A DNA stretch of 64,000 bases. Source: Cellulophaga fucicola (lineage in GTDB: Bacteria > Bacteroidota > Bacteroidia > Flavobacteriales > Flavobacteriaceae). The stretch lies in NCBI RefSeq assembly GCF_900119145.1, contig NZ_FPIY01000002.1:441579-505578 (forward strand). The letters run 5' to 3'. Below are positions 43,475-57,016 of the stretch, piece after piece. Within the stretch, counting starts at the first letter, position 1. Each line of letters opens with the position of its first letter. The notes beneath the pieces are model-generated. The model was given only the letters and a program-made list of their open reading frames with translations. It had not been told where the DNA came from and ran no database searches. The position numbers and the translations under genes are program-made.

Positions 43475-44557
43475 TTATCCTTTAATAATTTTTTCTTGGT
43501 GGTTAATAGATTCTTGATGTATTGCTTTAAACATTTTTAAAACAAATTCTTCACTTAAACCTTTAGACTCTCCTTCTAAAATCATAGCTCCTAAAATCTC
43601 GTTCCATCTTGTAGATTGCAAAACAGCAACGTTCTTTTCTTTTTTAAGTGCTCCAATTCCGTCAGAAATTTTCATTCTTTTACCTAAAGTTTCAATTAGC
43701 TGCGCATCTATAACATCTATCTGTGCACGTAAATTACTTAGGTCTTTATTGTATTCTGCTTCAGGATCAGATTCTTTTCTTATTCTTAAGTCGCGCATAA
43801 TTTGCACTAATTTTTCTGGTGTTACTTGTTGTGCAGCATCACTCCATGCATTGTCCGGATCAAAATGTGTTTCTATCATTAAACCATCAAAATTAAGATC
43901 TAAAGCTGTTTGAGACACATCAAAAATCATCTCTCTATTTCCAGTAATGTGTGACGGATCGTTAATTAAAGGTAAATCTGGAAACCTGTTTTTAAATTCA
44001 ATAGCCAATTGCCATTCTGGAATGTTTCTATATTTAGTTTTCTCATAAGTAGAAAAACCTCTGTGTATTGCACCTAAGTTTTTAATACCAGCTGTATGTA
44101 AACGCTCTATACCACCTAACCACAAAGATAAATCTGGGTTAATTGGGTTTTTAACCAATACAATTTTATCTGTACCAGCTAAAGCATCTGCAATTTCTTG
44201 CATTATAAAAGGACTTACAGATGTACGTGCTCCAATCCACAATAAATCTATATCATGCTCTAAAGCCAGTTCAACATGTGCTCTATTAGCTACCTCAGTA
44301 CAAGTTTTCATACCTGTTTCTGCTTTTACTTTTTGCAACCACTTAAGACCTAATAAACCTACGCCTTCAAAATTCCCAGGACGAGTTCTTGGCTTCCAAA
44401 TACCTGCTCTGTAATAACTTACATCTGTATCTTTTAATTGATGAGCAATTTTTAAAACTTGCTCTTCAGTTTCAGCACTACACGGCCCTGCTATTACTAG
44501 TGGATGATCTAGCTTCATGTCATCCAACCATGTTCTCATTTCTTTTGAATTTTCCAT
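43475..44557 (-). CDS. Bifunctional DAHP synthase / chorismate mutase
   Basis: This protein of 360 residues combines two steps of aromatic synthesis. Residues about 1-262 are a DAHP synthase of the KDO8P-like class (VIAGPCSAETEEQV, YYRAGIWKPRTRPGNFEG, LPLINDPSHITGNREMI). Residues about 270-355 are an AroQ-type chorismate mutase (LRAQIDVIDAQLIETLGKRM, followed by KISDGIGALKKE). In related fusions the mutase part also serves as the allosteric domain. It is the last gene of the operon, 5 bp after tyrA, so the entry enzyme falls under the same Phe-leader control as pheA. Confidence 0.93.
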   Translation of the reverse strand: MENSKEMRTWLDDMKLDHPLVIAGPCSAETEEQVLKIAHQLKDTDVSYYRAGIWKPRTRPGNFEGVGLLGLKWLQKVKAETGMKTCTEVANRAHVELALEHDIDLLWIGARTSVSPFIMQEIADALAGTDKIVLVKNPINPDLSLWLGGIERLHTAGIKNLGAIHRGFSTYEKTKYRNIPEWQLAIEFKNRFPDLPLINDPSHITGNREMIFDVSQTALDLNFDGLMIETHFDPDNAWSDAAQQVTPEKLVQIMRDLRIRKESDPEAEYNKDLSNLRAQIDVIDAQLIETLGKRMKISDGIGALKKEKNVAVLQSTRWNEILGAMILEGESKGLSEEFVLKMFKAIHQESINHQEKIIKG

Positions 44558-44562
44558 CTTAC

Positions 44563-45423
44563 TTAATTTTTATTCTGGGGTATTCCGTTTAATATTTCTT
44601 TTATCTTATTTGCACTATCCATCTCGTCATAAATACCCTGATAATTATCTTCTAAAATCATCTTTTTAAAGGCTTCTAGATTCTGGATGTATTCTTCTAA
44701 TGTTTCTAGAACATTTGTTTTATTCTGTTTAAAAATTGGTGTCCACATTGCTGGTGAACTTTTTGCCAAACGCACAGTACTCTCAAATCCACTCCCGGCC
44801 ATATCAAATATATCACGTTCATTCTTTTCTTTCTCAATAACCGTCTTTCCTAACATAAAAGAACTAATGTGAGATAAATGAGACACATAGGCTATGTGTT
44901 TATCGTGCGCATCTGCATTCATATACCTAATGCGCATTCCCATTTTCTGAAAAATATCTAACGCTCTTTCTTGTAATTTAAAAGCCGTTTTTTCTACTTC
45001 GCAGATAATATTTGTTTTTCCCTTAAACAAATTTTCTATAGCTGCAGACGGACCAGAAAACTCTGTTCCTGCAATTGGATGACACGCTATAAAATTTCTT
45101 CTTTTAGGGTGATTTTCTACTTCTTTACAAATTAAACCCTTTGTAGAACCAGCATCTAAAACAATTGCATTATCTGTAACTGCATCTAGTATTTTTGGCA
45201 ATTCTACTACCATAACATCTACAGGAATACTAACTATTACCATATCTGCCAACTCTAAATCTTTATAGGTTGCTTTCTGGTCTATTACACCTAAAGAAAT
45301 TGCCTCTTCTAAATGTGCATCGTTAATATCTACACCATAAATTTTAGCGTTAGCATCTATTCGTTTAATATCCTTGGCCATTGAGCCACCTATTAATCCT
45401 ATGCCAACTACAAATACGTTCAT
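44563..45423 (-). CDS. tyrA: Prephenate dehydrogenase
   Basis: TyrA oxidises prephenate to 4-hydroxyphenylpyruvate for tyrosine. The NAD-binding loop GIGLIGGSMAKDI is at residues 7-19, and the substrate region includes IACHPIAGTEFSGPSAA and HIAYVSHLSH with the catalytic His. Length 286 covers the catalytic core only, without an ACT domain, so it lacks an evident Tyr feedback site. It is 81 bp after the aminotransferase gene in the same operon. Confidence 0.93.
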   Translation of the reverse strand: MNVFVVGIGLIGGSMAKDIKRIDANAKIYGVDINDAHLEEAISLGVIDQKATYKDLELADMVIVSIPVDVMVVELPKILDAVTDNAIVLDAGSTKGLICKEVENHPKRRNFIACHPIAGTEFSGPSAAIENLFKGKTNIICEVEKTAFKLQERALDIFQKMGMRIRYMNADAHDKHIAYVSHLSHISSFMLGKTVIEKEKNERDIFDMAGSGFESTVRLAKSSPAMWTPIFKQNKTNVLETLEEYIQNLEAFKKMILEDNYQGIYDEMDSANKIKEILNGIPQNKN

Positions 45424-45504: not shown

Positions 45505-46647
45505 TTAAAATCTACTAATTGCTTCTTTTATTTTATCTTGAGTAACACATAACGAAAAGCGTATATAACCTTCTCCATTGCTACCAAAAATTGTTCCTGG
45601 CGTTATAAATACATTTTTGCTATACAATACTTCATCTATAAATTCTTCTGATGAAACACTACCCGTTGGCAGCTTTGCCCAAACAAACATACCTACTGCA
45701 TTTTTATCGTATGTACAATTTAATTTATCTGCTAATTGAAAAATTAAATCTCTACGACTAGCATATACTTTATTTAAGTCTGAGAACCAATCTTTACTAC
45801 TTTTTAAAGCTGCTATTGCTCCTTTTTGTATGCCATAAAACATACCAGAATCCATATTACTTTTTACTTTTAAGACTGCATCTAAATGCTCTTTATTTCC
45901 TAAAACCATACCTACACGCCAGCCAGCCATATTAAACGTCTTACTTAAAGAGTTTAACTCTAAAGCACAATCTTTGGCGCTCTCTATACTTAAAATACTT
46001 GTTGGTGCATTGTTTAAAACAAAACTATAAGGATTGTCATTTACCAATAGAATATTATTTTTTAAGGCAAATGCAACTAACTTTTGTAATTGTTCTTTAG
46101 TTGCCACAGCTCCTGTAGGCATATGCGGGTAACACACCCACATTATTTTTACTTTAGACAAATCTTGTTTTTCTAAAGCGTCTAAATCTGGAAACCAATT
46201 ATTCTCTGCAACCAAATCATAATACAAAGGTTCTGCACCAACTAAATTAGTTACAGATGTGTATGTTGGGTATCCCGGATTTGGAATTAATGCTGCATCA
46301 CCTACATTTAAAAAGGCCATACTAATATGTAAAATACCTTCTTTAGAGCCCATTAATGGTAAAATCTCGTTAGCTGGATCTACATTTACATTAAAGTTAG
46401 ACTTGTAAAAGGCAGCTATACTTTCTCTTAATTCTGGCAATCCTTGGTAACTCTGGTATTGGTGTGCACCAGCATCATCTACAGCATTTTTTATGGCATC
46501 TACAACAACTTTAGAAGGTGCTAAATCTGGACTTCCGATTCCCATATTAATAATAGGTCTTCCTTCTGCCACTAAACCACGTACCTCTCTAAGTTTTTTA
46601 GAAAAATAGTATTCTTGAATGTGTGCTAATCTATCTGCGGTTTTCAT
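45505..46647 (-). CDS. Pyridoxal-phosphate aminotransferase (aromatic operon)
   Basis: This fold-type I aminotransferase of 380 residues has the PLP-binding Lys in SLSKTFNMAGWRVG, the conserved NPGYPTY and the C-terminal Arg in YIRFSLC that binds the substrate carboxylate. By position between pheA and tyrA it most likely transaminates phenylpyruvate and 4-hydroxyphenylpyruvate. An aspartate or LL-diaminopimelate type activity cannot be excluded by sequence alone. The start overlaps the pheA stop by 4 bp. Confidence 0.9.
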   Translation of the reverse strand: MKTADRLAHIQEYYFSKKLREVRGLVAEGRPIINMGIGSPDLAPSKVVVDAIKNAVDDAGAHQYQSYQGLPELRESIAAFYKSNFNVNVDPANEILPLMGSKEGILHISMAFLNVGDAALIPNPGYPTYTSVTNLVGAEPLYYDLVAENNWFPDLDALEKQDLSKVKIMWVCYPHMPTGAVATKEQLQKLVAFALKNNILLVNDNPYSFVLNNAPTSILSIESAKDCALELNSLSKTFNMAGWRVGMVLGNKEHLDAVLKVKSNMDSGMFYGIQKGAIAALKSSKDWFSDLNKVYASRRDLIFQLADKLNCTYDKNAVGMFVWAKLPTGSVSSEEFIDEVLYSKNVFITPGTIFGSNGEGYIRFSLCVTQDKIKEAISRF

Positions 46648-47471
46648 TCTCTTCCGTTTTTGTATTCACCTAAAATCTTAAACTCTTCGGCCATTATTTC
46701 TAATAAAGCCTTTGCTTTTTTATAATCTTTATACTTTAAAAAAGTAACATCTACAAAGAACGAGTACTTCCAAGGCTGCTCTATAACTGGCAAGGATTGT
46801 ATTTTTGTTAAATTTAAATTACAATCGCTCATTACATTTAAAACAGCTGCTAAACTACCTCGTTTATGATCTAACACAAAACGTAGAGACGCCTTATTAA
46901 TTTCTTCTTCTGGCAGTTCTTTATTTTCTTTTTTAAGAATGATAAAACGTGTTGCATTATTAGATATCGTTTGTATCTCAGATGCTATAACCTCTAAACT
47001 ATACAGTTCAGAAGCAACTTTAGGCGCTATTGCTGCTATACCTGTTAAACTATTTTCTTCTATACGTTGAGCTGTTTCTGCTGTATCTACAGACTCAACC
47101 AACTTTATATGCGGATAAGCTTTTAAAAATTCTTTACACTGCAACAATGCCATTGGGTGTGAGTGTACTTCTTTTATATCCTCGATTTTTTGACCTTTTA
47201 AAGCCATTAAATGATGGTGAATGTTTAAATAATGCTCACCAATAATGTGTAGATCATTATTATAAACCAATGCATAATTAGGTATTATAGATCCTGCAAT
47301 AGAATTTTCTATAGCCATAACCGCCTTGTCTGCATAGCCCGTCATTAATTGATGAATTAGCTCATCAAAAGAAAGACACTCTACCAATTCTACCTCTTCA
47401 CTAAAAAACTCATTAGCTACTTGGTGGTGGTTAGAACCCTTTATACCCTGTATTGCTATTTTTAATGCCAT
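46644..47471 (-). CDS. pheA: Prephenate dehydratase with altered ACT regulatory domain
   Basis: PheA converts prephenate to phenylpyruvate. The catalytic TRF motif is at about residues 174-176 (NNATRFIIL) and AIENSIAGSI is near 54. The C-terminal ACT domain (about 193-270) keeps its fold pattern, but the Phe-binding signatures differ: GALV is GSLA and ESRP is QSLP (KIQSLP). Phe feedback inhibition may therefore be weak. I start at the ATG at 47471 rather than the GTG one codon before, giving 275 residues. It is the first structural gene behind the attenuator. Confidence 0.93.
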   Translation of the reverse strand: MALKIAIQGIKGSNHHQVANEFFSEEVELVECLSFDELIHQLMTGYADKAVMAIENSIAGSIIPNYALVYNNDLHIIGEHYLNIHHHLMALKGQKIEDIKEVHSHPMALLQCKEFLKAYPHIKLVESVDTAETAQRIEENSLTGIAAIAPKVASELYSLEVIASEIQTISNNATRFIILKKENKELPEEEINKASLRFVLDHKRGSLAAVLNVMSDCNLNLTKIQSLPVIEQPWKYSFFVDVTFLKYKDYKKAKALLEIMAEEFKILGEYKNGRE

Positions 47472-47510
47472 CACTTTTTTATCTACTTAAACTTCACTTT
47501 TTTGCATAAA

Positions 47511-47537
47511 AAAAGTCCCGTTATGTACGGGACTTTT
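47511..47537 (-). terminator. Attenuator terminator of the pheA operon
   Basis: AAAAGTCCCGT (minus strand, 47537-47527) pairs with ACGGGACTTTT (47521-47511), an 11-bp perfect stem with a 5-nt loop. The U-run of the stem end continues to seven T in a row. It lies 40 bp upstream of pheA and 24 bp after the leader peptide stop, so it can only affect transcription into pheA. Confidence 0.9.
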
Positions 47538-47575
47538 ATTTATATCTATATTTAAAATATACTACAACAGTCCCG
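47528..47575 (-). promoter_or_regulatory. Antiterminator pairing of the pheA attenuator
   Basis: The transcript contains CGGGACT twice: in the leader peptide coding region (47575-47569) and in the terminator 3' arm (47520-47514). The terminator 5' arm AGTCCCG (47534-47528) can pair with either. Pairing with the upstream copy blocks the terminator. The upstream copy is inside codons 20-22 of the leader, so a ribosome that reaches the stop codon covers it. Confidence 0.82.
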
Positions 47576-47633
47576 CACCTCTCTTAAAAAAGAAGTAAAA
47601 ATAAAAACCGTTCCAGAAATATCTTGTGTTCAT
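47562..47633 (-). CDS. Phe/Tyr-rich leader peptide of the aromatic operon
   Basis: This is a 23-codon reading frame with ATG at 47633 and TAG at 47564-47562. Residues 5-16 read YFWNGFYFYFFF; in all there are six Phe, three Tyr and one Trp. The end (KRGAGLL) overlaps the antiterminator arm. Too short for a function of its own, it fits a leader peptide whose translation measures charged tRNA-Phe. Upstream it is AT-rich with a weak promoter candidate (TAAAATTTG near 47680). No name has been given to it as far as I know. Confidence 0.85.
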   Translation of the reverse strand: MNTRYFWNGFYFYFFFKRGAGLL

Positions 47634-47867
47634 TATTCGTGTAATATATGGCTAAGGTAATTATTAAATTTAAAAAACAAATTTTATTATTCTTTTTTTT
47701 AGCACATCTAACATTATTTAATACTACTGTTATTTTTTTAACATAAAATTAAGATATCGATTTTCACAAACGTTAATATTATGTTAATAACAATTACGCT
47801 TAACCCTTAAAAAAGGAATACAATTCCTATTCCTTTTAAAAACAAAATTCACTTATTTACGTTATTT
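47634..47867. other. AT-rich intergenic region between the pheA leader and gldA
   Basis: The stretch between pheA and gldA (47472-47885) holds the attenuator, then about 170 bp of AT-rich DNA with no further coding potential, then an inverted repeat (47811-47837) and the gldA promoter. The pheA promoter must lie here, but no exact TAnnTTTG match was seen on the minus strand. Confidence 0.6.
47811..47837. repeat. Inverted repeat upstream of gldA
   Basis: AAAAGGAATA (47811-47820) and TATTCCTTTT (47828-47837) are exact reverse complements. A second ATTCC inside the loop (47823-47827) can pair with the same GGAAT, so two hairpins compete. It lies 26 bp before the gldA -7 box. Confidence 0.6.
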
Positions 47868-47870
47868 TTG
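47863..47870 (+). promoter_or_regulatory. gldA promoter, -7 element
   Basis: TATTTTTG matches TAnnTTTG exactly. A TTG at 47868 lies inside it, so translation more likely begins at the ATG at 47886. Confidence 0.58.
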
Positions 47871-47885
47871 ATAAAAAATATAGGT

Positions 47886-48776
47886 ATGTCTATTTCTGTA
47901 CAAAACATCAGCAAAACATTTGGGAACCAAAAAGCATTAGATAATGTTACTTTCTCTATTAATAAAGGAGAAATTGTTGGCTTTTTAGGTCCTAACGGAG
48001 CAGGTAAGTCTACACTTATGAAAATACTTACTACCTACATTTTAGCAGACAGTGGAGATGCACAAGTAAATGACTATAGTGTAGCAGATAAAATTAATGT
48101 ACAAAAAAGCATTGGGTACTTACCAGAACACAATCCGCTTTATTTAGATATGTATGTAAAAGAGTACTTAGCTTTTAACGCAAATGTATATAAGGTATCT
48201 AAAGCAAGAATTGCTGAAGTTATAGAACAAACTGGTTTAACTCCTGAAGCACACAAGAAGATAGATCAACTATCTAAAGGATATAGACAGCGTGTTGGCT
48301 TAGCTGCAGCTTTGTTACACAATCCTGAGGTATTAATACTAGATGAACCAACTACTGGTTTAGATCCTAACCAACTATTAGAAATACGTAAACTTATTAA
48401 AGAAATTGGTAAAGAAAAAACCATTTTACTATCTACACATATTATGAAAGAAGTAGAAGCAGTTTGCGACCGTGTGGTAATTATTAATAAAGGTGTTATT
48501 GTTGCTGATAAAAAATTAAACGAACTTAGAGACTCAACTGAGCAAATTATAGAAGTAGAATTTGATTATAGAGTTGAAGAGCAATTACTAAACAGGTTGC
48601 CAAATGTAGTTACTGTTAAAAATACTGCTGGTTTTGTTTACGAAATTACATTTGATACTGATGTAGATATGCGCCCTGCTGTTTTTGATTTTGCACACGA
48701 CAACCAATTAAAAACATTACAACTTAGTCGTAAAAACAAAAACTTAGAAAGTTTATTTACAGAAATTACAAACTAA
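47886..48776 (+). CDS. gldA: Gliding motility ABC transporter ATP-binding protein GldA
   Basis: This ABC ATPase of 296 residues has Walker A GPNGAGKST, signature LSKGYRQRVGLA, Walker B VLILDEPTTGLDPNQL and switch LLSTHIMKE. GldA works with GldF and GldG in gliding flavobacteria; those partners are not next to it here, as usual for this family. The match to GldA rather than a generic ABC protein rests on the whole-length pattern (MSISVQNISKTFGNQKALDN and the C-terminal part). I use the ATG at 47886. The end overlaps the convergent serine hydrolase by 11 bp. Confidence 0.88.
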   Translation: MSISVQNISKTFGNQKALDNVTFSINKGEIVGFLGPNGAGKSTLMKILTTYILADSGDAQVNDYSVADKINVQKSIGYLPEHNPLYLDMYVKEYLAFNANVYKVSKARIAEVIEQTGLTPEAHKKIDQLSKGYRQRVGLAAALLHNPEVLILDEPTTGLDPNQLLEIRKLIKEIGKEKTILLSTHIMKEVEAVCDRVVIINKGVIVADKKLNELRDSTEQIIEVEFDYRVEEQLLNRLPNVVTVKNTAGFVYEITFDTDVDMRPAVFDFAHDNQLKTLQLSRKNKNLESLFTEITN

Positions 48777-56757: not shown

Positions 56758-56824
56758 AACGCTATAAATAAAAATATCAAGTAAGGTAAAAAGAGGAGAC
56801 TGTGAATGTCTTTCTAATTTGTGA

Positions 56825-56938
56825 GTTATCTGCCGTGTTGTTTTGTAACAACGTAGTAGAATGTAGCACCTTCTTTAAATAAGAATAAAGGGTTGCTAAG
56901 GTTTCATTGGGTCTAATCCCTCCACCTTTCTTGATAAC
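56825..56938 (-). promoter_or_regulatory. SAM-I (S-box) riboswitch
   Basis: On the minus strand the aptamer begins GTTATCAAGAAAGGTGGAGG and continues GATTAGACCCAATGAAACC, TTAGCAACC and AAGGTGCTACATTC, the conserved core of the S-box. Its end GATAAC (56830-56825) pairs with GTTATC (56938-56933) to close P1. It precedes both metH genes and metF. High S-adenosylmethionine should reduce their expression; the expression platform is not certain. Confidence 0.93.
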
Positions 56939-57016
56939 GTTTTCAGTCTATTAATGAACTAATTGAGCCGCAAAGTAACAGCACAACTTTATTATAACCA
57001 AATATTGTTGGTTATT

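Follow-up and report, generated by a model that had tools for sequence, protein, structure and literature searches.

The pheA operon of Cellulophaga fucicola is very probably controlled by a ribosome-mediated (leader-peptide) transcription attenuator, a reading of the phenylalanine and tyrosine operon that draws on sequence comparison and folding models and in which we place high confidence. The candidate element combines a promoter-like site, a 23-codon leader and a terminator in front of pheA, and the 5′ arm of the terminator is predicted to have two alternative pairing partners. Comparison among relatives shows that the arrangement is conserved and that segments 2, 3, and 4 change together. 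Positions below are those of the window, the whole stretch of 64,000 nucleotides that was analyzed.

Layout of the leader and its operon

The leader, the terminator, and the four genes behind them lie on the minus strand, and the nearest upstream neighbor is encoded on the plus strand:

47868-48776, plus: ABC transporter ORF (Pfam ABC_tran), neighbor upstream of the leader
47652..47680, minus: inferred promoter, with TTG (47680-47678), an 18-nt spacer, and TACCTTAG (47659-47652)
47633-47562, minus: leader ORF of 23 codons, encoding MNTRYFWNGFYFYFFFKRGAGLL, with stop codon TAG at 47564-47562
47586..47621, minus: control codons 5-16 of the leader (YFWNGFYFYFFF)
47604..47616, minus: segment 1, from the end of codon 6 through codon 10, core of the 1:2 hairpin, whose partners are segment 2 and the leader stop codon
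47575-47569, minus: segment 2, CGGGACT, codons 20-22 of the leader
47576-47527, minus: antiterminator hairpin (2:3) of about 19 bp, from the fold of the RNA with codon 16 in the A site
47537-47508, minus: whole terminator, 11 bp plus seven Ts, between leader and pheA
47537-47527, minus: segment 3, terminator 5′ arm, AAAAGUCCCGU
47526-47522, minus: terminator loop
47521-47511, minus: segment 4, terminator 3′ arm, with the second CGGGACT copy
47514-47508, minus: U-run of the terminator, seven Ts
46647..47471, minus: pheA, prephenate dehydratase (Pfam PDT, PRK11898)
45505..46647, minus: class I/II aminotransferase (Pfam PF00155)
44563..45423, minus: tyrA, prephenate dehydrogenase (PRK08507, above cut-off)
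43475..44557, minus: DAHP synthase fused to chorismate mutase (Pfam PF00793 and PF01817)

The original prediction described a 23-codon frame with 10 aromatic residues, an 11-bp terminator with a U-run, and one CGGGACT heptamer in both leader codons 20-22 and the terminator 3′ arm, and all three are found at the positions above. Codons for F, Y, or W make up 10 of the 23 in the leader and all fall within codons 5-16. The RNA folds much better than dinucleotide shuffles (z-score −5.15, none of 200 shuffles being as good), and the antiterminator hairpin is predicted to reach −21.7 to −21.8 kcal/mol at 25 °C. The start of pheA is placed at the ATG at 47471 (the ORF listing has a GTG one codon upstream), and its product scores 200.7 bits against PRK11898, which has a cut-off of 219.

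The inferred promoter has counterparts in relatives: of 190 unique leaders, 128 have a TTG-N17..22-TAnnTTnG pattern no more than 90 nt 5′ of their start, compared with 12 of 950 shuffled sequences. TAnnTTTG is described in a Flavobacterium psychrophilum transcriptome study as the −7 box of the flavobacterial primary sigma factor (PMC9723704, in part). Transcription is expected to start near 47647, a position set by the putative promoter.

In the proposed mechanism, a shortage of charged tRNA-Phe or tRNA-Tyr would make the ribosome wait within codons 5-16, where, judging from the folds, it would open the 1:2 hairpin and free segment 2. Free segment 2 would then pair with segment 3 as the antiterminator, and RNA polymerase would continue into pheA. 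With a good supply, a ribosome at the stop codon would mask segment 2, segments 3 and 4 would pair, and transcription would end. The aromatic run ends one or two codons ahead of the point at which the ribosome would be expected to mask segment 2. Here we infer leader translation, transcription-translation coupling, and a starvation response of termination.

Conservation in Flavobacteriaceae

In order to evaluate conservation, upstream regions of pheA were searched by a strict rule, namely a short ORF with at least six aromatic residues in 12 and a terminator within 90 nt. The 216 loci comprise 30 from 60 relatives, the best 80 named contigs among the matches listed, 26 more from the family search, and 80 hand-picked from the tables of the relatives and the family search to spread over genera. 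One locus (L212) had no tblastn match in the locus script, so 215 were counted. PheA was matched in 269 of 299 family genomes; the loci read are part of these, and their choice leans to close PheA relatives.

An aromatic leader ORF followed by a terminator was found before pheA in 208 of 215 loci, with 168 distinct leader peptides among the 208, and in 198 of 205 unique upstream regions. The rule held in all 80 named loci and in 73 of 79 hand-picked ones, compared with 1 of 1,075 dinucleotide shuffles and 1 of 215 reverse strands. Within the window, the pheA leader itself was the single hit among 63 regions upstream of ORFs of at least 100 aa. The three genes 3′ of pheA share its strand in 75 of the 80 named loci. 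Two genomes from the window’s genus have, in the rows given by the detection rule, the same leader and terminator as Cellulophaga tyrosinoxydans (L053) and as Cellulophaga baltica (L054), in keeping with a placement of the window in Cellulophaga.

The strict rule overlooks leaders with loops longer than 10 nt or short U-runs, and seven loci failed it. Under relaxed rules, a leader and hairpin were also seen in L197, L209, and L210, which are excluded from the 208, and a leader is present in L188. The relaxed look revealed neither a convincing leader nor a hairpin upstream of pheA in L023, L205, and L211. The 450 nt upstream of pheA in L023 hold repeated units with GCGGGAT-type hairpins in place of the leader. 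Two close relatives (L006 and L007) carry a natural variant in stop position, with an earlier leader stop just before or within the GGGACT segment. One Flavobacterium-type locus (L139) has a Flavo-1 RNA (RF01705, 78.6 bits) at 686-763, near the pheA start.

Nearly all close relatives examined have a leader with a switchable terminator, and therefore the cell probably senses its own amino-acid supply through the speed of the ribosome on the leader.

Covariation of the pairing segments

Segments 2, 3, and 4 read CGGGACT/AGTCCCG/CGGGACT in the window and GGATT/AATCC/GGATT in Flavobacterium; a third group has CGAGAC/GTCTCG/CGAGAC. Heptamer pairs of the terminator (3:4) are kept in 1311 of 1319 alignment cells with 112 both-side changes, in loci chosen for having a hairpin. 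For the antiterminator (2:3), 78.9% of cells are paired in the alignment, compared with 18.6-60.0% when the segments are slid; about 40 rows lie one position out of register, so these 2:3 percentages are too low. Because of the misregistered rows, a register-free test was added for 191 unique leaders. Own arms scored 17.03, compared with 13.47 for arms dealt among species (sd 0.18, maximum 13.87 of 200), and in 172 of 191 leaders the own arm did better than foreign arms on average. Segments 2 and 3 thus match better within species than between species.

The antiterminator and terminator are mutually exclusive through their common segment 3, and they covary. This agrees with the original prediction, which had proposed that AGTCCCG can pair with only one CGGGACT copy and had named conservation of the frame and alternative stem in relatives as a check; both are kept. 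The alternative pairing envisaged there stands, but the antiterminator extends beyond the shared heptamer to about 19 bp.

Ribosome position is predicted to select the structure

We placed the leading edge of a model ribosome at a distance of 15 nt, counted from the first base of its P-site codon, and folded the ribosome-free RNA at 25 °C in a transcript ending at segment 3. In the window, pairing of segment 3 stays at 0.97 while the A site holds any of codons 10-16, drops to 0.62 for codon 17 and 0.13 for codon 18, and is 0.16 for a ribosome at the stop. Among the 208 leaders, segment 3 is predicted to pair in 204 when the last aromatic codon occupies the A site, to stay unpaired in 206 when the ribosome is at the stop, and to behave in both ways in 202. 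The earlier proposal that a ribosome stalled on Phe codons frees segment 2 while one at the stop covers it is thereby borne out in the model. The predicted switch point lies one or two codons past the last aromatic codon in 185 of 208 leaders. In silico, then, ribosome position selects the structure.

Both behaviors were seen in 185 of 191 unique leaders, compared with 135 of 573 sequences with the spacer shuffled. Replacing the terminator arm (8 nt) with that of another species produced a modest drop, to 459 of 573; this control is weak because most arms are alike across species.

The same model places the switch of E. coli pheL at the codon after the last Phe, and those of trpL and thrL a few codons past the control codons, while hisL is poorly reproduced (0.17 at the last His). 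For RNA at equilibrium with no ribosome, segment 3 is predicted to be paired in 146 of 208 leaders. This modeled state differs between the window (0.93) and E. coli pheL (0.31); thrL and trpL are both at 0.03. A start-codon mutant of the E. coli trp leader is reported to terminate more.

Phenylalanine and tyrosine codons are both conserved

The final aromatic codon and its three predecessors encode F, Y, or W in 191, 190, 191, and 191 of 191 unique leaders. Over the 13 codons that end with the last aromatic codon, the mean numbers are 5.8 for Phe, 2.8 for Tyr, and 0.66 for Trp; in this stretch, Tyr is absent from one leader and Trp from 66. Position −3 is Tyr in 157 of 191 leaders, and the last three are mostly Phe. 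The placement of Tyr codons is as conserved as that of Phe, and therefore the leader should sense both, while Trp seems optional. Phe and Tyr are products of the operon behind the leader. The original label of a Phe-leader is correct as to the conserved Phe codons but too narrow, since Tyr codons are equally conserved in place.

A possible 1:2 hairpin

In the minimum-energy fold of the leader, codons 6-10 pair with codons 20-24, so that a 1:2 hairpin can form, at least in the folding model. The original prediction had described a minimal form with no separate 1:2 hairpin. That form, an attenuator with no working 1:2 hairpin in which an untranslated leader would be read through by default, seems rather unlikely to us, although several results are in line with it. 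Segment 3 is paired in the modeled no-ribosome state of most leaders, including that of the window (0.93); RNAalifold applied to 88 leaders did not return the 1:2 helix, its output being an inner 6-bp hairpin only; and segment 2 is still paired in 151 of 191 leaders whose upstream part was shuffled. Against it, 188 of 191 leader-only RNAs have segment 2 paired with sequence upstream of it, in the window with codons 6-10. Among 88 unique 23-codon leaders, pairs of the 1:2 helix are kept in 2138 of 2464 cells, compared with 49-53% when slid, and the 12 core pairs are each kept in 75-88 leaders. The window also matches the whole Rfam Phe_leader model, if weakly, and the order of events during transcription would favor formation of 1:2 first.

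Alternative explanations

An ordinary terminator of an upstream gene, joined to an aromatic ORF that arose by chance, was considered and rejected as extremely improbable. Hairpins with U-runs are indeed common, one strand of the window having 29 terminator-like sites and the other 20, but the next upstream gene (47868-48776) runs the opposite way, and the terminator therefore cannot serve it; moreover, 208 of the 215 pheA loci combine leader and terminator, as do 1 of 1,075 shuffles. It is similarly hard to credit that the leader peptide is a small protein with an action of its own to which the RNA switch is secondary. The 23-codon type is alike across several genera, but the 208 loci encode 168 distinct peptides that vary in length and tail, with F/Y placement constant, and the tails of Flavobacterium and other clades are unrelated.

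A switch driven by a regulatory protein or by direct ligand binding, which the ORF would merely accompany, has only a very slim chance of being correct. In its favor, segment 3 pairs with segment 2 in the absence of a ribosome in 146 of 208 modeled leaders, so that another effector could choose between the structures, and a SAM riboswitch elsewhere in the window indicates that the genome uses ligand-bound leaders. On the other hand, the interval 47460-47700 gave no match at the Rfam gathering threshold to a T-box or any other riboswitch, and the riboswitch reading was set aside. Furthermore, 185 of 208 leaders have their last aromatic codon one or two codons short of the masking point, and only a ribosome explains this simply. 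Ribosome-mediated attenuation is the preferred reading of the element.

Relation to known attenuators

The layout resembles that of E. coli pheL (Rfam RF01859, Phe_leader), which has the same Phe-rich leader ORF, a terminator before pheA, and an antiterminator. In a permissive search the window gave an end-to-end but weak match to RF01859 (32.9 bits, E = 5e-4; gathering score 55), and 6 of 20 relatives matched at E ≤ 0.5, the best at 38.8 bits and likewise below the gathering score. Unlike pheL, the flavobacterial leader has Tyr codons besides Phe, and its operon also holds the aminotransferase, tyrA, and DAHP synthase. Leaders with codons for several amino acids that are products of one operon are known from E. 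coli thrL and ilvGMEDA; the flavobacterial pair differs in being Phe plus Tyr and in belonging to another phylum. The leader offers an account of how the synthesis of Phe and Tyr might be controlled in organisms where the E. coli Tyr regulators are not known to occur. Comparative work on attenuation by Lopatovskaya and colleagues (2010) may list cases from Bacteroidota.

The original prediction, whose author knew of no described case for this operon in flavobacteria, overstated its novelty. The 2021 transcriptome of F. psychrophilum includes a structured 5′ element at pheA that is conserved in other Flavobacteriaceae genera and has no Rfam match, and a separate sentence speaks of “strong clues” of leader-peptide attenuation at amino-acid operons of that species (PMC9723704). 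That element coincides with ours in gene, family, conservation in other genera, and lack of an Rfam match; in the relevant passages of the report it is not itself termed an attenuator, and these passages give no leader peptide, antiterminator, or ribosome geometry. The pheA locus of F. psychrophilum itself lies outside the examined set. Elsewhere in the phylum, Bacteroides thetaiotaomicron is described as having long 5′ UTRs with short ORFs that are reminiscent of attenuation leaders (PMC7366714), and leader genes in Bacteroidetes are discussed in general terms in a further source (PMC4833913). A literature search, with subscription journals mostly outside its reach, found no experiment on the pheA leader element. 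The pheA leader is a well-supported case of a known mechanism, already hinted at in part in print.

The leader offers a natural test of transcription-translation coupling in Bacteroidota, and its geometry is sharp enough for codon-by-codon prediction of where a stalled ribosome should switch the operon. The leader family, with many members and a basis in both sequence and structure, offers material for an Rfam entry.

Other amino-acid operons and the class Bacteroidia

Three further leaders, each followed by a terminator, were recognized in the same genome:

L257, 1189-1301, reverse strand: hisG leader, MRNNNTHHHHFTPCYQAS, then terminator
L258, 1321-1431: trpE leader, MKITTNIWWWNNLRQTS, then terminator
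L260, 1045-1165: ilvD leader, MKTNNIIIIVLVIIISLWG, then terminator

The folding model predicts a switch for the trpE leader, whose value falls from 0.72 at the last Trp codon to 0.04 with the ribosome at the stop. The predicted switch is partial for hisG, from 0.85 (last His) to 0.41 (stop), and absent for ilvD, from 0.94 (last Ile) to 0.68 (stop). Neither L261 nor L262 showed a thrA leader, but in L262 the gene start possibly lies outside the examined stretch.

PheA was matched in 41 of 149 genomes of the class Bacteroidia. The class set consists of 37 upstream regions, namely 36 (one from the window’s own family) and L212. The strict rule was met by 18 of the 37, and relaxed rules added a leader and hairpin in four outside this count (L229, L242, L246, and L248). 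A relaxed look at the remainder gave two ambiguous regions, one hairpin alone, one leader alone, and 11 with neither leader nor hairpin. The ribosome-position folding test was passed by 16 of the 18 strict-rule leaders.

We give roughly even odds to the broader proposal that leader-peptide attenuation is the general mode of control for amino-acid operons in Flavobacteriaceae, and for pheA throughout the class Bacteroidia, with joint sensing of Phe and Tyr by one leader. Bacteroidota are described as starting translation without Shine-Dalgarno pairing (PMC9723704, in part). If the proposal is true, ribosomes closely trail RNA polymerase in bacteria that initiate in this way, and some leaders are read through by default when untranslated, unlike the E. 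coli models.

Across the window, matches at the Rfam gathering threshold are a SAM riboswitch at 56823-56940 on the minus strand (RF00162, 70 bits) and a tRNA at 115-188.
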